From: Candidatus Hydrogenisulfobacillus filiaventi
GTDB lineage: Bacteria; Bacillota; Sulfobacillia; Sulfobacillales; R501
Length of the DNA stretch: 64,000 nucleotides
Direction of reading: 5' to 3'
Assembly (NCBI GenBank): GCA_902809825.1
Contig: LR778114.1
Coordinates: 868,001 to 932,000, forward strand
Below are positions 9,593 through 30,563 of this stretch, in pieces. The position numbers and the translations under genes were made by a program. Positions within the stretch are counted from its first letter, which is position 1. Every line of letters begins with the position of its first letter. Below the pieces are notes generated by a model. The model had not been told where the DNA came from. It did not search any database and was given only the letters and a program-made list of their open reading frames with translations.

Positions 9593-10225
9593 CTACCCCC
9601 TTTCTCTGGCGTGATGGCTTCGGATCACATCCGTCACGTGCTTACGAAATCCATGGCTGCGGCGACCGTAGAGACGGGCAGCAAACACCGTGAGGATGGT
9701 AATGAGGTCGCGTGTCAGTTCGTCTTCCGCAGAAGTCGGCGGAGCATCGTCCAAGCAAATGATGCGAACCTTGCGCGCCGTAAGGTATGTCTCGAGGTAG
9801 CTGTACCCGAATCGAGCCAGTCGATCACGGAACTCCACCAGGACGAGATCGATCCGGCTATCTTCCGCAAGCCGAAAGATGCGGCGCAACCCCCGCCGTT
9901 TCTCGTTAATCCCGGAGGCTTGCTCCGCGATCACTTCCACGATTCGGTAGCCTCGCTCTTTAGCCGCATTGAGCAAGCGCGCTTTCTGCCGATCCAGGTT
10001 CCCGTCCCGCTTCTGCTGGCTGGAGGACACGCGCGCGTAGATCACCGCTCGGTTTCCGCCGCTGCGCTCTCCGGCTAAGCGGTTGATCGATTCCAGGCTA
10101 AACATCCGTCGCCCTCCTGGGCTCCGAATGGTTTGGAGCACGCCCTGCGCATCCCACCGCCGCAACGTGCGGGATGACACCCCTAGCCGCCGCCGTGCTT
10201 CAGCGACACTGACAAAGTTATCCAT
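9593..10225 (-). CDS. tnpA: IS607-type serine recombinase (transposase TnpA)
   Basis: A 210-residue transposase. Residues 1-50 are a MerR-like helix-turn-helix (VAEARRRLGVSSRTLRRWD), followed by a small serine-recombinase catalytic domain beginning VIYARVSSSQQK. Arg65 and Ser67 correspond to the catalytic Arg and nucleophilic Ser. The C-terminal oligomerisation helix is present (ELTRDLITILTVFAARLYG). DNA-binding domain ahead of the catalytic domain is the IS607 layout, opposite to most resolvases. Length is normal and the frame is intact. Confidence 0.93.
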   Translation of the reverse strand: MDNFVSVAEARRRLGVSSRTLRRWDAQGVLQTIRSPGGRRMFSLESINRLAGERSGGNRAVIYARVSSSQQKRDGNLDRQKARLLNAAKERGYRIVEVIAEQASGINEKRRGLRRIFRLAEDSRIDLVLVEFRDRLARFGYSYLETYLTARKVRIICLDDAPPTSAEDELTRDLITILTVFAARLYGRRSHGFRKHVTDVIRSHHARERG

Positions 10226-16404: not shown

Positions 16405-16902
16405 TCAAGGGCCGGCAGGCGGCTGCCATTGTGGCTCGTGGGTCCGCATCCAGGCGCGCATGGCCTGCCACTTGTCCAGAAAGAGGCGCGCGTATTCCGG
16501 GTTGGAGGTCACCTGAATGAAGTTGTCCTCCCGGCTGGCGGAGAGGGTGAAGTTCCAGCTGCCAGTGAGGACCCGCATCCCGTCCGCGACCGCAAACTTG
16601 TGGTGCATGATGGCGTGTAGGCGGGAGGTGCCCACGGTCACCTCCGCCCCCGTCGCCAGCAGCTGCCGGATCTCGGGCAGTTCCAGCGCCCGTTCGGCCT
16701 GGGAGTGGTCGAGGACCAGGGCCACATTCACCCCGGCCCGCAGCTGCTGGCTCAGGATGTCCACCGCCACCGGAAGATGGAAGCTGTAAACCGCCAGGCG
16801 GAGGCTGTGCTGTGCCTGCCGCAAAAAATCCAGGAACACCGTCTGGGTGTCGTCTTCGGGACTGAACCAGGTGCGGATGCCCAGTTCGACCGTGATGCCC
16901 AT
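16405..16902 (-). CDS. Phospholipase D-like domain protein (single HKD motif)
   Basis: A 165-residue protein with one PLD-type catalytic motif, IMHHKFAVADGMRVLTGSWN (His, Lys, Asp in HxK(x)4D), preceded by the strand-helix units seen in small Nuc-type nucleases (TWFSPEDDTQTVFLDFL; HSLRLAVYSF). Single-HKD members act as dimers, usually as phosphodiesterases or nucleases. No signal peptide is visible, so it is probably cytoplasmic. ATG 16902 is preceded by AGGGGGGGA. It lies behind cooS in the same direction, separated by 114 bases. Confidence 0.85.
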   Translation of the reverse strand: MGITVELGIRTWFSPEDDTQTVFLDFLRQAQHSLRLAVYSFHLPVAVDILSQQLRAGVNVALVLDHSQAERALELPEIRQLLATGAEVTVGTSRLHAIMHHKFAVADGMRVLTGSWNFTLSASREDNFIQVTSNPEYARLFLDKWQAMRAWMRTHEPQWQPPAGP

Positions 16903-17016: not shown

Positions 17017-18906
17017 TCAGCGGGCGGAGGTCAGGGCCTGGCGCCGGCTTTGCAGATGGGCGGTGAGCAGGTCGGCGGCCCGCACCGGGTCCTGCTCCTC
17101 GACCAGGAAACGGGCGCCCAGGAGGTCATCCAGGCCGGTGGTCAGCAGGCTGGTTACCCCCGGACCCCCGGTGACCGGCGGCAGCGGCCCGACCAGGGTG
17201 GTGATGCCGCTGGCTACCGCCAGCAGGGCGTCTATGAGGGCGTCATTGTTGTAGTATTCGGGCGCGGCTGCAGCCACGGGCAGGCGGGAGGGGTCCACGC
17301 CCAGGAGCTCGCTGAGGGCGTAGACGGTAAGCACGATACGGCCGGCGTCCAGGCAGGAGCCGTAGCTAAGGACAGGGGGGATGCCCAGGCGTTGGGCCAG
17401 GCCGCGCAGGCCCGGCCCGGCCAGGACGGCGGCCTCGGGGGCGGCCAGGCCCGCCACCTGGGCGGCACTGGCGGCACATCCGGCCACCAGCACCGGAATA
17501 TCGCGCCGGATCAGCTCGCGGATGAGGGCGTTGGTCATGAGGTCCTGGCCGTTGCGGGTGTTGGTGCAGCTGACTAGCCCCACCACTCCCTGGATTTGTC
17601 CCCCGGCGATGGCTTCCACCAGCGGCAGCAGGCTGCCGCCCAGGGCGGCGCTGAGCGACTCCAGGCCGAAGCCGGCCATATACGGGCTCCGGTACTCCGG
17701 CACCGTCAGCGGGCGGCCCTGGCGCCGGCGGTAGGCCTCTACCGCCATCGCCGCCAGCTGCCGGGCCTGGGCCTCGGCCCGGGCCGGCTCGTAGTGCAGG
17801 TCGGGGCGGTCCTCCACCCCGCGCAGATGGACCAGACCTGACACCGGGACCAGGCGGGTGCCGGTGCGTTCCGCCATCTGGGGCAGGGCGGGGGTGCTGC
17901 AGTTCTTGTCCATCATCACCAGGTCCACTGCGCCGGTGCTGAGCCAGAACTCCTGGCTGATCCAGTTGCCCAGCTGTCCGCCCAGTCCGGCGGCGGTGCC
18001 AGGACGCTGGGTAAGTTCCTGCCCCACGCACATGGATCCCAGCAGGCGGATGCCTTTGGCCCCCGCCTGACGGGCCATAGCCTGCACGGCCGGTTCCTCC
18101 AGGACCTGGGCCAGGGCGGAGGCCGTCCAGGGCACGTGCCCATGGGCCACGATGTTGACGTAGGCGGGGTCCAGCACCCCCACGTCCGCCTGCCCGCTGG
18201 TGGGGGCGGGGGAGCCCAGCACCACATCCCGCACCAGGGTGGTAGCGATGTTGCCCAGAAAGCCCGCCGATAGCCCCAGCCGCAGGGCGGTCAGCAGCAG
18301 GTCCTGGTAATCGGTATCGATGTTGGGCATCACCTTGGCGGCGGCCTCATGTCCTTCAAACAGGTAGCCGCCGGGCAGGATGCCCAGGCGCTCCCAGAGG
18401 GCAACCCGGGAGGGGGGCGCCAGGCGGCGGATCAGGTCCAGAGGCTGGTCCACGTCCTTGCGGAATTCCTGGTCCAGATAGGCGGCCAGGGCGGCCGCGG
18501 CGGCGGGCCCGTCCGCCGCCGGCAGGCCCAACCGCGCGGCCATCCGGGTCAGCTTGCCGGGATCCGCCACCCGGAACGGCCCTTGGCCCTCGGCCACCGC
18601 CCGCAGAGTTTTAAGGGTGTGCTTGAAGTCGTGGGTGTAGGCCGCCCCGCCCTGGTTGACCAGACGCAGAAGGTTGCGGGCCACCATGCCGTCGGCGTCG
18701 ATGCCGCAGATGCCGCGTTCGGCGCCCGGCCGGATACGGCAGGGGCCGTCAGGGCAGAGGGTGCAGCAGGTGCCCTTGCGGCCGAACTGGCAGAACGGGG
18801 ATTGGGTGCGGCGACGGTCGAAAATGGTGGGAATCTTCTCCCCCGCCAGCCGGAACTGCAGATCCCGGATGCTGGCGTGGTCGGTGCAGCTGGTGCAGGT
18901 ATGCAT
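17017..18906 (-). CDS. cooS: Anaerobic Ni-Fe carbon monoxide dehydrogenase catalytic subunit, divergent
   Basis: A 629-residue CooS, oxidising CO to CO2. B/D-cluster cysteines are in the N-terminal CxxC and CQFGRKGTCCTLCPDGPCRI. C-cluster ligands can all be placed: His in VAHGHVPWT, Cys in LLGSMCVGQE, MDKNCSTP, LVSCTNTRN, LVAGCAAS and YGSCLDAGRI. The family's catalytic lysine (Lys563 of CODH-II, pattern PEWMSEKA) is replaced: here the segment is PEYYNNDA. So electron and metal sites look intact but the proton-handling residue differs. ATG 18906 has AGGAGGAGGTGG just before it; a start 27 codons upstream lacks such a site. No cooC, cooF or acs genes are in the window. Confidence 0.88.
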   Translation of the reverse strand: MHTCTSCTDHASIRDLQFRLAGEKIPTIFDRRRTQSPFCQFGRKGTCCTLCPDGPCRIRPGAERGICGIDADGMVARNLLRLVNQGGAAYTHDFKHTLKTLRAVAEGQGPFRVADPGKLTRMAARLGLPAADGPAAAAALAAYLDQEFRKDVDQPLDLIRRLAPPSRVALWERLGILPGGYLFEGHEAAAKVMPNIDTDYQDLLLTALRLGLSAGFLGNIATTLVRDVVLGSPAPTSGQADVGVLDPAYVNIVAHGHVPWTASALAQVLEEPAVQAMARQAGAKGIRLLGSMCVGQELTQRPGTAAGLGGQLGNWISQEFWLSTGAVDLVMMDKNCSTPALPQMAERTGTRLVPVSGLVHLRGVEDRPDLHYEPARAEAQARQLAAMAVEAYRRRQGRPLTVPEYRSPYMAGFGLESLSAALGGSLLPLVEAIAGGQIQGVVGLVSCTNTRNGQDLMTNALIRELIRRDIPVLVAGCAASAAQVAGLAAPEAAVLAGPGLRGLAQRLGIPPVLSYGSCLDAGRIVLTVYALSELLGVDPSRLPVAAAAPEYYNNDALIDALLAVASGITTLVGPLPPVTGGPGVTSLLTTGLDDLLGARFLVEEQDPVRAADLLTAHLQSRRQALTSAR

Positions 18907-18952
18907 GCGGCCACCTCCTCCTGGGGAAGCACGATGTGAAAGGTGCGGGTGA

Positions 18953-18958
18953 AGATTA
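18953..18958 (-). promoter_or_regulatory. Predicted -10 element of the cooS promoter
   Basis: The minus strand reads TAATCT at 18958-18953, about 47 bases before the cooS ATG. Transcription would start near 18946. No good -35 is present, as expected of an activator-dependent promoter with the Crp-like site overlapping the -35 region. Confidence 0.5.
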
Positions 18959-18979
18959 GCAAAGTTATCGGAAACTATC

Positions 18980-18995
18980 TGTGACAACTGCCACA
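18980..18995. promoter_or_regulatory. Crp-type operator between cooS and its divergent regulator
   Basis: TGTGA-CAACTG-CCACA is a near-perfect Crp-family palindrome (consensus TGTGA-N6-TCACA, one mismatch), flanked by matching C and G bases. Its centre lies 41.5 bases upstream of the transcription start predicted from the cooS TAATCT element, the standard class II activation position. The neighbouring regulator carries a Crp-type recognition helix (RERVSR), which fits this half-site. Confidence 0.65.
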
Positions 18996-19120
18996 GTAAA
19001 TCTGATATTGCGCGATCGAAGGGAAAAACTTACCTTACAATTGTGGATGGTGCCATGTATCTTACATAAACCAGAGGGCCGAGTGGCCTCCGGCTGCGGC
19101 CGGGACAGGAGGGGACGGGG

Positions 19121-19837
19121 ATGGCTAGCACCGGATGCCAGGCGAAATGCCCGGATTTCGCGGCCGGCTGCGGCCGGGTGGAGCTGCGCGCAGGGCTTTC
19201 CCTGCGGTCCTGGTGGCTGCCGCCGTTGCTGGCTGACCTGCCGGGGGTGGAGCCGGACCTCCTGCCGGTGCAGACGGTCCCGCGCGGGGCGATCCTGTTC
19301 CGGGAAGGGGAGCCGGCGGCCGGGATGTGGTACCTGGCTGCAGGCTGGGTCAAGCTGGTACGGGAGGCCCCCGACGGCCGCGAGCGGGTCTTGTGGGTCA
19401 AGCGACCGGGGGATTATGTGGCGGAGGGGACCCTGACCCTGCAGAGCGTCTACCCGGCTTCCGCGGTGGCCCTGGCCCCGCTGCGGGCGGTGCTGATCCC
19501 GCGCGAACGCTGGGCGCTGCTGGTGTGCCGGTATCCGCAGCTGGCGGCAGGCCTGAACGCCATCCTCATCCGGGCCCTGGCCGCTGCCCAGGTACGACTG
19601 CGGGACCAAAGCGGCCCGGTGCTGGAACGGGTGGCGCGGCTGCTCCTGGACCTGGCGCAAGGTCCGGAAGCGCTGCCGCTGCGGCACGAGGATGTGGCCG
19701 CCCTGGTCGGCGCCTCGCGGGAACGGGTGTCGCGGGCGTTGGCGCATTTGCGCCGGGAAGGCCTGATTGCCGGCGGGCCCCGCCGGTTGCGGGTCCAGCG
19801 GGACCGCCTGGGCCGGTGGCTGCAGGACCGGGAGTAA
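19121..19837 (+). CDS. Crp/Fnr family transcriptional regulator with Fnr-like cysteine set
   Basis: A 238-residue regulator: cyclic-nucleotide-type sensor barrel (about residues 48-135, with FREGEPAAGMWYL and KRPGDYVAEG), dimer helix, and C-terminal winged helix with LRHEDVAALVGASRERVSRA. It has exactly four cysteines, Cys6, Cys10, Cys17 and Cys136: three at the N-terminus and one internal, the layout that binds a [4Fe-4S] cluster in Fnr, though the spacing differs. The recognition helix reads RExxxR as in Crp, not Fnr. It is divergent from cooS with a TGTGA palindrome between them, so control of cooS is the natural inference. No CooA-type heme ligands are evident. Confidence 0.88.
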   Translation: MASTGCQAKCPDFAAGCGRVELRAGLSLRSWWLPPLLADLPGVEPDLLPVQTVPRGAILFREGEPAAGMWYLAAGWVKLVREAPDGRERVLWVKRPGDYVAEGTLTLQSVYPASAVALAPLRAVLIPRERWALLVCRYPQLAAGLNAILIRALAAAQVRLRDQSGPVLERVARLLLDLAQGPEALPLRHEDVAALVGASRERVSRALAHLRREGLIAGGPRRLRVQRDRLGRWLQDRE

Positions 19838-19936: not shown

Positions 19937-20012
<76 letters not shown>

Positions 20013-24619: not shown

Positions 24620-26014
24620 ATGACACAATTAGGGTTGGCGCGCCTGCAGTTCGGCGTGACCACCGTCTATCACTTCCTGTTCGTGCCGCTGACCATCGGA
24701 ATCTCCTTCCTCATCGCCATCATGGAAACCCAGTACTACGTGACCAAGAAGCCGGAGTACCGGCAGCTGGCGCAGTACTGGGGCAAGCTGTTCCTCATCA
24801 ACTTCGCCATCGGCGTCGTGACCGGCATTCTGCAGGAGTTCCAGTTCGGGCTCGACTGGGCCAACTACTCCCGCTTCGTGGGCGACATCTTCGGCGCCCC
24901 CCTGGCGGTGGAGGCCCTGCTGGCGTTCTTCATGGAGTCGACTTTCATCGGCGTCTGGGTCTTCGGATGGGACCGGGTGTCGAAGGGTGTGCACCTGGCC
25001 GCCATCTGGCTGGTCGCCCTCGGCACCTCGCTCTCGGCCCTTTGGATCCTGACCGCCAACTCCTTCATGCAGGAGCCGGTGGGGTACGTCATCGCCCAGC
25101 ACAAGGCCGAGATGGCGAGCTTCGGGGCCCTGCTGGCCAACCCGCAGTTGTGGCGGGAGTTCCCGCACGTGATCATGGCCTCCTGGTTGACGGCGTCCGT
25201 GTTCGTCCTGGCGGTCAGCAGCTACCAGATCCTCAAGAAGCGCAACGTGGAGGCCTTCAAGCACTCCTTCCGGCTGGCGGCCATCGTCGGCGCCATCGCC
25301 TCGGTGCTGGTCATCGTCATCGGCGACATGCAGGCCTCTCACCTGCGGGTGTCGGAGCCCATGAAGCTGGCGGCCTCGGAGGCGGTGTTCAACACCACGG
25401 GGCAGCACGCGCCCTGGAAGGTGTTTGCCATCGTCAACGGCAAGACCGAGCACAACTCGGCCGTGATTGAGATTCCCGACATGCTGAGCCTCCTGGCCTA
25501 CAAGAGCACCACGGGGTCCATCGAGGGCATCAACCAGATCCAGGCGCAGTACGTCAAGAAGTACGGGCCCGGCAACTACGTGCCGCCGGTGGCGCCGGTG
25601 TTCTACACCTTCCGCCTCATGATCCTGGCCGGCACCTTGATGCTGATCATGACCTGGTGGGCGCTCTTCCTGCTCAAGGGGGACCGCTACGTCAACCGGC
25701 CGCGTTTCCTGAAGCTCATGGAGTGGACCCTCATCCTGCCGTACCTGGCCAACATCTCCGGCTGGATCATGACCGAGGTGGGCCGCCAGCCCTGGGTGGT
25801 GTACGGGCTGCTGAAGACGGCCGACGGGGTCTCGCCGCCGGTGACGGTGCCCGCGGGTGACATTGCCTTCTCGGTCATCGTCTTCACCCTGACCTACGGT
25901 CTCATGGCCGGCTTCGCGGTCTACCTCTTCCGCAAGTACGCCGACACCGACCTCGGCCCGGCGACCGCGGAGGGCGAGGTGGCCGAAGGCGCCGCCTACA
26001 CCCGCGTGGTCTAG
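24620..26014 (+). CDS. cydA: Cytochrome bd oxidase subunit I
   Basis: A 464-residue membrane protein, the heme-bearing subunit of the quinol:O2 oxidoreductase. His18 in TTVYHFLFVPLTIG is the heme b595 ligand, FPHVIMASWLT carries the b558 histidine, the proton-channel glutamates are in AVEALLAFFMESTFIG, and the GRQPW quinol motif is in TEVGRQPWVVYG. The Q-loop is of the short type. ATG 24620 follows GGAGGGAGGG. First gene of cydABDC; works with CydB. Confidence 0.96.
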   Translation: MTQLGLARLQFGVTTVYHFLFVPLTIGISFLIAIMETQYYVTKKPEYRQLAQYWGKLFLINFAIGVVTGILQEFQFGLDWANYSRFVGDIFGAPLAVEALLAFFMESTFIGVWVFGWDRVSKGVHLAAIWLVALGTSLSALWILTANSFMQEPVGYVIAQHKAEMASFGALLANPQLWREFPHVIMASWLTASVFVLAVSSYQILKKRNVEAFKHSFRLAAIVGAIASVLVIVIGDMQASHLRVSEPMKLAASEAVFNTTGQHAPWKVFAIVNGKTEHNSAVIEIPDMLSLLAYKSTTGSIEGINQIQAQYVKKYGPGNYVPPVAPVFYTFRLMILAGTLMLIMTWWALFLLKGDRYVNRPRFLKLMEWTLILPYLANISGWIMTEVGRQPWVVYGLLKTADGVSPPVTVPAGDIAFSVIVFTLTYGLMAGFAVYLFRKYADTDLGPATAEGEVAEGAAYTRVV

Positions 26015-26040
26015 GCCGCGTAGAGAGGAAGGGAGCGGCA

Positions 26041-27060
26041 ATGACGCTACAAGCCCTATGGTTCATCCTGGTGGCGGTCTTGTTCATGGGCTTCTTCTTC
26101 CTGGAAGGCTTCGACTACGGGGTAGGAACCCTCCTGCCCTTCCTGGGGAAGACCGACAACGACCGCCGGGTCATGCTGAACACCATCGGTCCGGTGTGGA
26201 ACGTCAACGAGGTGTGGCTCATCACCGCCGGTGGCGCGCTGTTCGCGGCCTTCCCGGAGTGGTACGCCACCATGTTCAGCGGCTTCTACCTGGCCCTGGT
26301 CCTGATGCTGCTGGGCCTCATCGCCCGCGGGGTGGGCCTGGAGTACCGCAGCAAGGAGAGCACGGCCGGCTGGCGCAAGTGGTGGGACAGCCTGGTGTTC
26401 GGCGGCAGCGCGCTGCTGGCCCTGCTATGGGGGGTCGCCATCTCCGACCTGGCCCACGGGCTGGCCATCAACGCCCAGTTCAACTACGTCGGCGGCTTCT
26501 TCGGGCTCCTGTCGCTGTACTCGGTCTTCGGCGGCCTCACCAGCCTGGTGGTCTTCGCCCTGAGCGGCGCCCTCTACCTCCGCATCCGGACCGAGGGGGC
26601 GGTGCGCGACGCCGCGGACAAGGCTATCCCCAAGCTGGGGGCGACCGCGACCGTGCTGCTGGGCCTCTACCTCATCTGGACCAGCCAGCAGCTGGGCGGC
26701 GCCGTGATGGCGCACTGGGGCGTGCTGGGCGTGACGGTGGCGGCCCTGGCCTGGCTGGCGATGCTCTCCGAGCGCTTCTTCTTCAACGCGAAGAAGCCCG
26801 GATGGACCTTTGCCATGCAGGGCATCTCTATCGCACTGGTGACGGCGGCCATGTTCATCGGGCTTTTCCCTGATGTCATGATCTCCACCATCAACCTGAA
26901 GTACAGCCTGACCATCAACAACGCGGCGTCCAACCCGTACACCCTGGGCGTCATGACCATCGTGGCCCTGGTGATGGTGCCGATTGTGCTGGCCTACCAG
27001 ATCTGGGTACACTGGATGTTCCGGAAGCCCGTCAGCGGACAGATGCATCTCGAGTACTAA
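26041..27060 (+). CDS. cydB: Cytochrome bd oxidase subunit II
   Basis: A 339-residue membrane protein with about nine helices. The N-terminus WFILVAVLFMGFFFLEGFDYGVG and the segment GPVWNVNEVWLITAGGALFAAFP are diagnostic for CydB. It carries no covalent heme ligand of its own but completes the bd oxidase. ATG 26041 is 27 bases behind cydA, with GAGAGGAAGGGAG before it. Length is typical. Confidence 0.96.
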   Translation: MTLQALWFILVAVLFMGFFFLEGFDYGVGTLLPFLGKTDNDRRVMLNTIGPVWNVNEVWLITAGGALFAAFPEWYATMFSGFYLALVLMLLGLIARGVGLEYRSKESTAGWRKWWDSLVFGGSALLALLWGVAISDLAHGLAINAQFNYVGGFFGLLSLYSVFGGLTSLVVFALSGALYLRIRTEGAVRDAADKAIPKLGATATVLLGLYLIWTSQQLGGAVMAHWGVLGVTVAALAWLAMLSERFFFNAKKPGWTFAMQGISIALVTAAMFIGLFPDVMISTINLKYSLTINNAASNPYTLGVMTIVALVMVPIVLAYQIWVHWMFRKPVSGQMHLEY

Positions 27061-27072
27061 GGTGGGGGGATC

Positions 27073-28791
27073 ATGGACCGGCGCTTATGGACCCGGGTGA
27101 AGCCCGCGCGGTGGCTCCTGGCGATGGTCATCGGCCAGGGGGTGCTCAATGGGGTGCTTGTGGTGCTGCAGGCGTGGTTCATGGCCCAAGCGGTGGCCCA
27201 GGTCTACCTGGGCCACCGCCCGCTTTCTGCGGTCAGCCCCGATATTTACGGGCTGCTGGCGGTGGTGGCGGCTAGGGCCGTGGTCGCCTGGGGCGCCGAA
27301 CGGGCTGGCCTGGCAATGGCCCAGCGGGTGCAGGCGGAGGTGCGCCGGCAGATCATGGAGGCCGTGGTCGGGCGGGGGCCCGCCGCCATGACGGCGGGGT
27401 CGGGCGGGGATGTGGCCGCCATCGCCCTGGACGGCGTGGAGGCGCTGGAGGATTACCTGGCCCATTTCCTGCCCCAGGTGGTCTTGAGCGTGGCGGTGCC
27501 GGTGCTGGTGGGGCTGGCGGTGCTGTGGCAGGATCCCTTGTCCGCCCTTATTCTTTTCGTGACCGCGCCCCTCATCCCCATCTTCATGGTGCTCATCGGC
27601 CGGCAGGCGGAGGCCACCAACCGGCGGCAGTGGGAGCTGCTGTCGCGCCTCTCGGCGCACTTCCTGGATGTCCTGCAGGGGTTGACCACCCTGGAGCTTT
27701 TTGGACGGGCCCGGCGGCAGGAGGCCATCATCGCCGACGTCAGTGACCGCTACCGGCGGGCGACGATGAAGACCTTGCGCATCGGGTTTCTGTCCTCCCT
27801 GGTTCTGGAGCTGTCGGCGGCCCTGAGTACCGCCATCGTGGCGGTGGTCATCGGGATCCGCATGGTGGGTGGCAGTCTTCCCTTCTTTCCCGGGTTCTTC
27901 GTGCTGCTGCTGGCACCGGAGTTCTTCGCTCCCCTGCGGGCGCTGGGCACCAACTATCACGCCGGCCTGAGCGGGCGGACCGCCTTGGAGCGCATCTTTG
28001 GGGTGCTGGACCAGCCGGTGCCGGAGCCCGGCCGGCGGCGGCCCCCCGAAGGGGCGCCGCTGACGGTGCGCCTGAACCACCTGAGCTATGCCTACGGTCC
28101 CGGGGATCCGGTCCTGCGGGACGTGTCCCTGTTCCTGCCCCCGGGCCGGCACCTGGCCATTGTCGGCCCCAGCGGGGCCGGGAAGAGTACCCTGCTGTCG
28201 GTGCTGATGGGCTTTGTGGTGCCGGGACCCGGGCAGGGGGAGGTGGCCGGGGTGGACCTGGCCGAGCTGGACGGCGACTGGTGGCGGCGGCAGGTGGCCT
28301 GGGTGCCGCAGCGGCCATACCTGTTCGCCGGCACCGTGGCCGACAATATCCGGCTGGGGGTCCCTGACGCCCCCCGGGAGGCGGTGGAGGAGGCAGCCCG
28401 CCTGTGCCGGGCCGACGCCTTCATCCGGGCGCTGCCCCAGGGCTACGATACCGTCATCGGCGAGCGCGGCCTGACCCTCAGCGGGGGGGAGGCGCAGCGC
28501 ATCGCGCTGGCCCGGGCGGTGCTCAAGGATGCCCCGGTGGTGTTGATGGATGAGCCCACCGCCAACCTGGACCCCGAGACGGAAGGGGTCCTGGATGAGC
28601 TGCTCGAGCGCTGGCGGGACCGCACGGTGGTGGTGGTGGCCCATCGCCTCAACACCGTCCGCCATGCCGACTGGTTGCTGGTGATGGATGGCGGCCGGGT
28701 GGTGGAGAGCGGGACGCCGGAGTCCCTGGCCCAGCGGCCGGGGCTCTACCGGCAGCTGCGCATCGCGTACGCCGAGGGGGTGGGGTCGTGA
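27073..28791 (+). CDS. cydD: ABC exporter subunit CydD, cytochrome bd assembly
   Basis: A 572-residue half-transporter with six N-terminal membrane helices (about 1-310) and a C-terminal ATPase: Walker A GPSGAGKSTLL, signature LSGGEAQRIALARAV, Walker B VVLMDEPTANLD, and the H-loop histidine in VVVAHRLNTV. With CydC it forms the heterodimeric exporter needed for bd oxidase assembly; thiols (cysteine, glutathione) have been reported as substrates and heme has been discussed. ATG 27073 is 13 bases after cydB; its end overlaps cydC by four bases. Confidence 0.94.
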   Translation: MDRRLWTRVKPARWLLAMVIGQGVLNGVLVVLQAWFMAQAVAQVYLGHRPLSAVSPDIYGLLAVVAARAVVAWGAERAGLAMAQRVQAEVRRQIMEAVVGRGPAAMTAGSGGDVAAIALDGVEALEDYLAHFLPQVVLSVAVPVLVGLAVLWQDPLSALILFVTAPLIPIFMVLIGRQAEATNRRQWELLSRLSAHFLDVLQGLTTLELFGRARRQEAIIADVSDRYRRATMKTLRIGFLSSLVLELSAALSTAIVAVVIGIRMVGGSLPFFPGFFVLLLAPEFFAPLRALGTNYHAGLSGRTALERIFGVLDQPVPEPGRRRPPEGAPLTVRLNHLSYAYGPGDPVLRDVSLFLPPGRHLAIVGPSGAGKSTLLSVLMGFVVPGPGQGEVAGVDLAELDGDWWRRQVAWVPQRPYLFAGTVADNIRLGVPDAPREAVEEAARLCRADAFIRALPQGYDTVIGERGLTLSGGEAQRIALARAVLKDAPVVLMDEPTANLDPETEGVLDELLERWRDRTVVVVAHRLNTVRHADWLLVMDGGRVVESGTPESLAQRPGLYRQLRIAYAEGVGS

Positions 28792-30563
28792 AGCCGCTTA
28801 AGCCGTTTATTGCCCAGGTGCTCCGGTTCCGGGGCTGGTTCGCGGGGTCGCTGGCCGCGGGCTATTTCACCGTGGCCACCAATATCGGCCTGCTGTTCAC
28901 CTCCGCCTACCTGATCTCGAAGGCGGCCCAACGGCCCAGCACCATCCTCCTGCTCTGGGTGCCGATCGTGGGGGTGCGCTTCTTCAGCACCGCCCACGGC
29001 GTGGGGCGCTATGTGGAACGTTACCTCTCCCATGAACTCACCTTCCGGGTGCTGACCGACCTGCGGGTCTGGTTTTACCGCCAGGCGCGGGCCATGGGGG
29101 TGGGGCTGCGGCTCAACCTGCACTCGGGCGAGCTCCTGAGCCGGGCCATGGCCGACGTCGACACCCTGCAGAATCTGTACCTGCGGCTGCTGGCGCCGCC
29201 GTTGATCTTTTTCCTCACCCTGGTCACGGTGATCGGGATCCTGGTGCCCCATGGGTGGGGCCTGGCCCTGACCCTGACCGTCTTCCTGCTGGCCGCGGGC
29301 CTGGCGGTTCCGTTATGGGCGGAGGTGCGTAGTCGGGAGGCCGGGCGTGACTGGCTGCCCCTGCGCGCCCGTCTCAGCGCCCTGATTGTCGATACCGTGG
29401 GCGGACTCGGGGACCTGACCGCCTACGGGCAGGCCCGGGCCCAGCTTGCGCGCCTGGAGGCCCTCAACCGCGAGCAGGGCCGGTTGCGGGCCCGCGGGCA
29501 GTCGACCAGGGCGCTGTCGGCCGGGCTGCTTACCCTGCTCAGCCTGGGTGCGGCTTGGGCCCTGCTCACGGAGGGGATTCCGCTGGTGGAGGCGGGCCGC
29601 CTGCCGGGGGTGCTGCTGGCCTCGGTCACCCTGCTGGGGCTGGCCTCCTTCGAGGCGGTGCAGCCGCTCCCGCTAGCTTTTCAGTACCTCTCCCAGAGCC
29701 GGGAGGCCGGCCGACGCTTGCAGGAGCTGACCGCCGGCGCCCCTCCGGAACCGGCCGACGGGGTGCGGGTGCGGTGGGAAGGGGTACCCGCCCTGGAAGT
29801 GCGGGGGCTGGGCCTCCGCTACGAGGAGGCGCGCTGGGCGCTCGAGGGGGTCGATCTGGACCTCCGGCCCGGCCGGCGGGTGGCGGTGGTGGGGCCCACC
29901 GGCTCCGGCAAGAGCAGCCTGCTCTCGGTGGTGGCCGGCCTGTGGCCCTACCAGCGCGGGGAGGTGCGGCTGGGCGGCCATGAGCTGCGCCGGCTGGACC
30001 CCGGCTCGCTACATGCGGCCCTGGCAGTGGCCGAGCAGCGCCCGCACCTGTTCAATACCACCCTGCGCGAGAACCTGCTCCTAGCCGACCCGGATGCTGA
30101 TACCGCCGCCCTCGAACGGGCCGCCCGGGTGGCGGTCCTGGATGAGGTGGTGGCCCGGCTGCCGGAGGGCTATGATACCCCCATCGGCGAACAGGGCGCC
30201 CGCCTGTCGGGCGGCGAGGCCCGGCGCCTGGCGGTGGCGCGGGCGGTGCTGAAGGGGGCGCCGGTGGTGCTCCTGGACGAGCCGACCGAGGGGCTGGACG
30301 CCACCAACGCCGGGCGCCTGATGCAGCGCCTGCTGGAGTGGCTGGGGCCCCGGTCCCTGCTGCTGGTGACCCATCTGCTGACCGGCCTGGAGGCCATGGA
30401 CGAGATTGTGGTGCTGGATCAGGGCCGGGTGGTGGAGCGAGGAACCCAGGCCGAGCTCCTGGCCCGCAACGGCTACTACCGGCGCCTGTGGGAGAGCCAG
30501 CAGCAGCGCCTGGGGGACGTGACGGACGGGCCGGAGAGCGTGGCCGCGCCCGCCCTGGGCTGA
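28788..30563 (+). CDS. cydC: ABC exporter subunit CydC, cytochrome bd assembly
   Basis: A 591-residue partner of CydD with the same six-helix plus ATPase plan: Walker A GPTGSGKSSLLS, signature LSGGEARRLAVARAV, Walker B VVLLDEPTEGLD. The N-terminal FTSAYLISKAAQRPS is typical of CydC. GTG 28788 overlaps the cydD stop (GTGA), so translation is coupled. Last gene of the operon; a strong hairpin follows before the convergent cell-surface gene. Confidence 0.94.
   Translation: MKPLKPFIAQVLRFRGWFAGSLAAGYFTVATNIGLLFTSAYLISKAAQRPSTILLLWVPIVGVRFFSTAHGVGRYVERYLSHELTFRVLTDLRVWFYRQARAMGVGLRLNLHSGELLSRAMADVDTLQNLYLRLLAPPLIFFLTLVTVIGILVPHGWGLALTLTVFLLAAGLAVPLWAEVRSREAGRDWLPLRARLSALIVDTVGGLGDLTAYGQARAQLARLEALNREQGRLRARGQSTRALSAGLLTLLSLGAAWALLTEGIPLVEAGRLPGVLLASVTLLGLASFEAVQPLPLAFQYLSQSREAGRRLQELTAGAPPEPADGVRVRWEGVPALEVRGLGLRYEEARWALEGVDLDLRPGRRVAVVGPTGSGKSSLLSVVAGLWPYQRGEVRLGGHELRRLDPGSLHAALAVAEQRPHLFNTTLRENLLLADPDADTAALERAARVAVLDEVVARLPEGYDTPIGEQGARLSGGEARRLAVARAVLKGAPVVLLDEPTEGLDATNAGRLMQRLLEWLGPRSLLLVTHLLTGLEAMDEIVVLDQGRVVERGTQAELLARNGYYRRLWESQQQRLGDVTDGPESVAAPALG

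Follow-up and report, generated by a model that had tools for sequence, protein, structure and literature searches.

The locus described here lies in a window of 64,000 nucleotides, by which we mean the whole stretch of DNA analysed, from Candidatus Hydrogenisulfobacillus filiaventi R50, a thermoacidophile that oxidises H2, was grown at low O2 and carries nar, nirK and norB genes (PMC10080006). Its genome is a single contig of 2,570,337 bases, and R50 is the sole member of its family among the genomes compared. In the window, a gene for a Crp/Fnr-family regulator and a cooS gene diverge from a 214-bp gap, an AT-rich island whose core has 42% GC compared to 71% in the window, and a palindrome lies between them (Table 1). 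A sequence-only reading of this DNA had proposed a four-cysteine Crp/Fnr regulator divergent from cooS, with a Crp-like recognition helix (RERVSR) and an intergenic palindrome to fit it. Reading of the open reading frames and Pfam matches bear out the regulator, the helix is present in its sequence, and the palindrome fits the RExxxR helix as a Crp-type operator placed to regulate cooS.

Table 1. Positions of genes and predicted control features around cooS; numbers are window coordinates unless residues are given.
Feature	Position	Strand	Details
PLD-like gene	16405..16902	-	PF13091, 1.3e-16; downstream of cooS
cooS	17017..18906	-	ATG 18906, stop 17017; 629 aa; Ni-CODH-like, clade D (D-3-like); TIGR01702
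Shine-Dalgarno of cooS	18911..18921	-	GGAGGAGGTGG
Candidate -10 of cooS	18953..18958	-	TAATCT, 3/6 to TATAAT, weak; preceded by TGC (extended -10); with it the operator would be centred at -41.5
Crp-type operator (predicted)	18980..18995		TGTGACAACTGCCACA; TGTGA-N6-CCACA, centre 18987.5
Candidate sigma-70 promoter of regulator gene	18981..19009	+	GTGACA-17-GATATT; -35 inside operator
Crp/Fnr-family regulator	19121..19837	+	238 aa; ATG 19121, stop 19837; good Shine-Dalgarno AGGAGGGG
Cysteines of regulator	residues 6, 10, 17, 136		no others; recognition helix SRERVSR (RExxxR, Crp-type)

The regulator belongs to the Crp/Fnr superfamily: it has an N-terminal beta-roll of the cNMP-binding type and a C-terminal Crp-type helix-turn-helix, with matches above cut-off to PF00027 (cNMP_binding, 64 bits), PF13545 (HTH_Crp_2, 57 bits) and PF00325 (30 bits). 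The Pfam and NCBIfam profiles returned no named equivalog, and the assignment stays at the level of the superfamily. Its nearest solved relatives are of the GlxR / Mtb CRP type (74-75 bits), and CooA is absent among the solved-structure matches. The CRP/GlxR type, which gives the best sequence matches, also shares a similar operator (TGTGAT...ATCACA); the window regulator differs in its added N-terminal cysteine motif, in showing no sign of cAMP, and in its local arrangement with few candidate targets. In a tree it forms an orphan long branch, loosely near order-level Crp proteins, with its exact placement unsure. R50 encodes two further Crp paralogues (G000:C1:645044 and G000:C1:745727), and all three proteins carry an R-E-x-V-S-R helix. 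The second of these paralogues (L003) adjoins an apparent cytochrome bd gene, read antisense, and a cydAB-cydDC-like run is also found in the window at 24620-30563. Directly downstream of the regulator lies a tRNA-Ala(CGC) gene (19937-20012), where the pair of cooS and regulator, absent from the order-mates, may have been inserted. Elsewhere in the window (9593-10225, minus strand), a reading frame with an N-terminal MerR-like helix and, by eye, a serine recombinase domain resembles an IS607-type transposase.

CooS scores 620 bits against TIGR01702 (cut-off 478), and among solved structures it matches Carboxydothermus CooS-V best (7b7q, 469 bits; Jeoung et al., 2022); that protein belongs to clade D and has no CO activity (PMC9311411). 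We aligned R50 CooS with 29 relatives to tabulate its ligands. All C-cluster ligands, one His and five Cys, are kept (H255, C293, C336, C447, C477, C518), including the Cys295 ligand that CooS-V does not keep, and a type II D-cluster is present as C39-x7-C47C48. Both acid/base residues are replaced: the equivalent of His93 is Tyr90, and the equivalent of Lys563 is Asp555, a position at which all 28 other aligned CODHs that cover it have Lys. Due to the replacement of both catalytic residues, a classical CO-oxidising role of R50 CooS is doubtful. R50, whose CooS has kept its metal ligands but not these two residues, is an aerobic or microaerobic organism. The structural group D-3 of Inoue et al. 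(2019) is defined by a type II D-cluster, the Tyr and a full C-cluster (PMC6344411, Table 2), and R50 CooS shares these features together with its clade D lineage. It departs from D-3 Ni-CODHs in its Asp at Lys563, in its N-terminal three-cysteine motif, of which C4 and C7 remain while the third Cys of the relatives is missing, and in having no adjacent CooF or FNOR gene. The place taken in relatives by genes for a CooF-like protein and an NAD(P)/FAD-oxidoreductase is occupied in R50 by the PLD-like gene. Because the order-mates examined have no cooS match, the gene was probably either acquired horizontally by R50 or lost widely in the order.

The palindrome upstream of cooS and in relatives

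The palindrome has extended symmetry (CTGTGnCAnnTGnCACAG at 18979-18996) and differs from TGTGA-N6-TCACA by one half-site mismatch. At the density of such sites in the genome (17 per 2.57 Mb), 0.0014 sites with at most one mismatch would be expected by chance in the 214-bp gap. For comparison we used the 20 nearest CooS loci from class and phylum searches, all from other families (46-55% identity) and with one genome per species; some of these loci end at contig ends, and in one (G224) the sequence ahead of cooS is shorter than 100 bp. The sequence-only reading had suggested a search for the same palindrome upstream of cooS in relatives, and there it is: a perfect TGTGA-N6-TCACA lies upstream of the cooS gene or operon in 12 of the 20 (L111, 112, 113, 115, 116, 117, 118, 119, 121, 122, 124 and 127), and three more have a site with one mismatch. 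By contrast, no such site occurs within 350 bp of the control cooS genes, be they CooS-V-type (0/15) or canonical (0/22; together 0/37, Fisher 2e-7). Each of the relatives' genomes has 0-9 perfect sites in all (1.5 per Mb), and G017 has none besides the one at cooS. If the loci are taken as independent, the binomial P for 12/20 at genomic density is about 1e-34; our counts do treat related genomes as independent. The sites are not recent copies of each other, since their spacers differ, and conservation across the relatives excludes a chance origin of the palindrome in practice. The palindrome is very probably the landing site of a regulator.

Most relatives have two sites, the second being a TCACAG half-site that lies 22-23 bp downstream of the first, and a TATAAT-like box stands 51.5-52.5 bp from the first centre; both signals exceed all 500 shuffles, and in L115 the second palindrome is almost full. 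Because the TATAAT peak lies at a fixed distance from the first centre, the two sites fall near -64.5 and -41.5. An arrangement of class I plus class II sites is a pattern of Crp-type promoters, and L111, L113, L115, L118, L120 and others show it, with two Crp-type sites in tandem at a spacing of 22-23 bp and the -10 at a fixed distance. In L116 (4002-9770), where an operator stands at the start, the cooS operon opens with a CGGC-domain protein, followed by a NIR_SIR (nitrite/sulfite-reductase)-like protein, cooS, CooF and an oxidoreductase. This content hints that the role of these CODHs has to do with nitrogen oxides, sulfite or redox stress.

In the window, a second operator 23 bp downstream of the first is absent. 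The single class-II-like site resembles those of the class relatives L124 and L127, in which -10 candidates matching 4/6 at a comparable offset would put the site near -42. An exact class II position had been claimed for R50, with the operator centre 41.5 bases from the predicted cooS start. The arithmetic holds if transcription starts at 18946, and -41.5 recurs in the relatives, but the start itself depends on a hexamer that matches at 3/6 positions. Alternative hexamers in the window with 4/6 matches would set the centre at -20.5, -30.5 or -39.5, and with several hexamers qualifying we do not accept TAATCT as the unique choice of -10. By analogy with the relatives, a class II activator position at -41.5 in R50 is plausible. 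On the other strand, the candidate promoter of the regulator gene is the single promoter-like match in 18880-19140 (0.1 expected). Because its -35 overlaps the operator, the regulator is likely to be autoregulated through its own promoter.

We also asked which regulators accompany the operator in the relatives. Eleven of the 20 encode a protein of one Crp/Fnr orthologue group, which shares 48-60% identity with the L118 protein, and all 11 have an operator with at most one mismatch (nine perfect, two with one mismatch), compared to four of the nine relatives that lack the orthologue (P=0.008). The orthologue gene adjoins cooS in three of its 11 carriers. The group has no conserved cysteine and matches no named family, and the tree rejects the window regulator as a member of it, the latter being a long branch of unsure place.

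Cysteines of the adjacent regulator

The adjacent regulator was proposed to be an Fe-S (or CO/NO) sensing activator on account of an 'Fnr-like layout' of its four cysteines. E. coli FNR, which has an oxygen-labile [4Fe-4S] cluster, carries Cys20-x2-Cys23-x5-Cys29 plus Cys122 and the recognition helix VETISR. Together with Bacillus Fnr, the other [4Fe-4S] O2 sensor compared, it has in common with the window regulator the Crp/Fnr fold and four cysteines, three of them N-terminal plus one. On closer comparison the likeness to FNR is superficial: spacing, register and the fourth position are all off. The N-terminal pattern of the regulator is C-x3-C-x6-C rather than C-x2-C-x5-C. Relative to the core Gly, its cysteines stand at -50/-46/-39 and +80, and those of FNR at -39/-35/-32/-26 and +67, so that the N-terminal cysteines are 11-13 residues farther from the beta-roll core and the fourth is 13 residues beyond the Cys122 position. 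As both spacing and register differ at all four positions, and the helix is RERVSR and not VETISR, we reject membership of the E. coli FNR type. Bacillus Fnr has a C-terminal Cys cluster with three ligands plus Asp141 (PMC3520743); the window regulator has no Cys after residue 136 and hence no such cluster, which excludes this type as well.

Could the regulator nevertheless be an FNR-like [4Fe-4S] sensor of O2 or NO (or CO) that activates cooS? Three cysteines in a stretch of 12 N-terminal residues, with a fourth elsewhere, is clustering above chance (shuffle P=0.02), the window regulator is the sole Crp/Fnr protein found in R50 with cysteines, and R50 has narGHI, nirK and norB genes and lives where O2 is low (PMC10080006). 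Against this stand the mismatches with E. coli FNR and the absent Bacillus-type cluster, and the comparative evidence points the same way. The proposal had been staked on retention of the four cysteines in orthologues, yet no orthologue was found in 154 genomes of the class (best match 38%), a query of the regulator against the genome-contig collection gave a best match of merely 23%, and no relative shares the cysteines. Moreover, the regulators that track the operator in other genomes have no conserved Cys. Overall we consider an FNR-like sensor unlikely, and the analysis does not support the Fe-S or CO/NO sensing first suggested. Cysteine-based redox sensing of some kind, through Fe-S or thiols, is possible, and no comparative evidence favours it.

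Candidate readers of the operator in R50

The reading that we prefer, and consider probable, is that the palindrome is a genuine Crp/Fnr operator, part of a control element that clade-D (D-3-like) cooS operons in Bacillota have conserved, class II at about -41.5, and that in R50 the adjacent four-cysteine regulator is its most likely reader. R50 would then share the operator with its relatives but not the regulator; the adjacent protein is most likely, and a paralogue is possible. Several points count against this reading: the half-site mismatch, the lack of a second site and the weak -10 in R50, the paralogues with a helix of the same type, and the position of the window regulator outside the orthologue clade.

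Some of these points suit another explanation, in which the operator is real but is read by one of the other two R50 paralogues acting as a global Crp-type regulator, the four-cysteine protein being an unrelated neighbour or merely regulating itself. The shared R-E-x-V-S-R helix is consistent with it, as are the orphan branch of the window regulator and the matching regulator of the relatives, which is usually encoded away from cooS. It fits poorly with the divergent adjacency of the two genes across a common AT-rich intergenic region, and with the overlap of the operator by the regulator's sole promoter-like match. Nor do near-sites elsewhere in R50 look like a global regulon: few are in AT-rich intergenic DNA, and no clear wider regulon emerges because most sit inside GC-rich, coding-looking DNA. 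We therefore regard a paralogue acting in this way as rather improbable. R50 has two more near-perfect TGTGA-N6-TCACA sites in AT-rich, probably intergenic DNA, at G000:C1:1578596 (L075) and G000:C1:2118702 (L078), which are possible further targets.

While the palindrome may instead be a functionless remnant, left behind when the ancestral regulator and partner genes disappeared from R50, this seems decidedly unlikely. The missing neighbours CooF and oxidoreductase, the lost acid/base Lys and third N-terminal Cys of CooS, and a mismatched site without its second copy would agree with such decay. However, the site retains extended symmetry within an AT-rich promoter island, where a chance occurrence is hardly expected, and cooS has an intact frame and a strong Shine-Dalgarno sequence.

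Rex, the NADH/NAD+ regulator, is a repressor with the consensus TTGTGA-N6-TCACAA. Although rex is encoded in R50 and a Calderihabitans cooS cluster has Rex-like motifs ahead of it (PMC7306483), Rex is a very improbable reader and we reject it on the motif, as the window site has 3/12 mismatches to its consensus, none of 16 sites matches in full or has an A after TCACA, position 6 is never A but T in 10/16 (Crp-like TGTGAT), and a co-occurring Crp/Fnr orthologue exists.

Two further Crp/Fnr systems resemble this one. CooA, the CO-sensing haem activator of coo operons, is alike in its fold, in its adjacency to cooS as predicted activator and in a class-II-like operator. However, it controls canonical CO-oxidising CODHs rather than a clade-D-like CooS without acid/base residues, and its operator, TGTC-N8-GACA (PMC7306483, PMC6085454), differs from the TGTGA-N6-TCACA type, here TGTGA-N6-CCACA, so that CooA is rejected as reader. 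HcpR, the hybrid-cluster protein regulator, likewise stands beside a gene of the prismane/CODH family and has a similar operator (consensus TTGTGA-N6-TCACAA; PMC545781). The window system does not belong with it, given that the target is cooS and not hcp and that the outer T...A is absent from the sites; no second prismane-family match was found in R50.

Proposed control of clade D CODH genes

Under the preferred reading of a conserved operator read in R50 by the adjacent regulator, a dimer of a Crp-type regulator would bind TGTGA-N6-TCACA upstream of clade-D (D-3-like) cooS operons and activate cooS from the site near -41.5 as a class II activator, with the second site near -64.5 acting jointly in most lineages. 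In R50, the divergent four-cysteine regulator would most likely bind and activate in this way, and probably also control its own promoter, as a lineage-specific stand-in for the Cys-poor orthologue of other lineages. The site with its conservation, specificity and spacing, the company of the regulator orthologue and the CooS residues come directly from the sequence comparisons; binding, activation, autoregulation and the choice among the R50 paralogues are inferred from them. One can go further and imagine a sensor swap: an unrelated Crp/Fnr protein with four cysteines has taken over the operator from the ancestral regulator, senses redox through a Cys centre of its own (possibly Fe-S) and drives a CODH scaffold without acid/base residues, the clade-D (D-3-like) operons forming a dedicated, undescribed regulon with tandem class I/class II operators. 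We offer this fuller scenario tentatively, as it is unlikely to hold in all its parts.

In the open-licence literature we found no described link between a Crp/Fnr protein with TGTGA sites and these cooS genes. The Crp/Fnr circuit for clade-D-like CODHs appears to be conserved and undescribed, and R50 has its own lineage-specific regulator for it. What clade D CODHs do in the cell is not established, as genomic-context studies could not assign them a clear partner (PMC13056359). The conserved operator and the Crp/Fnr orthologue that co-occurs with it are a handle on when these genes switch on, and the lineages with perfect tandem sites allow direct testing of the circuit. The R50 variant, with its different regulator and residue-degenerate CooS, would test whether operators outlive their sensors.
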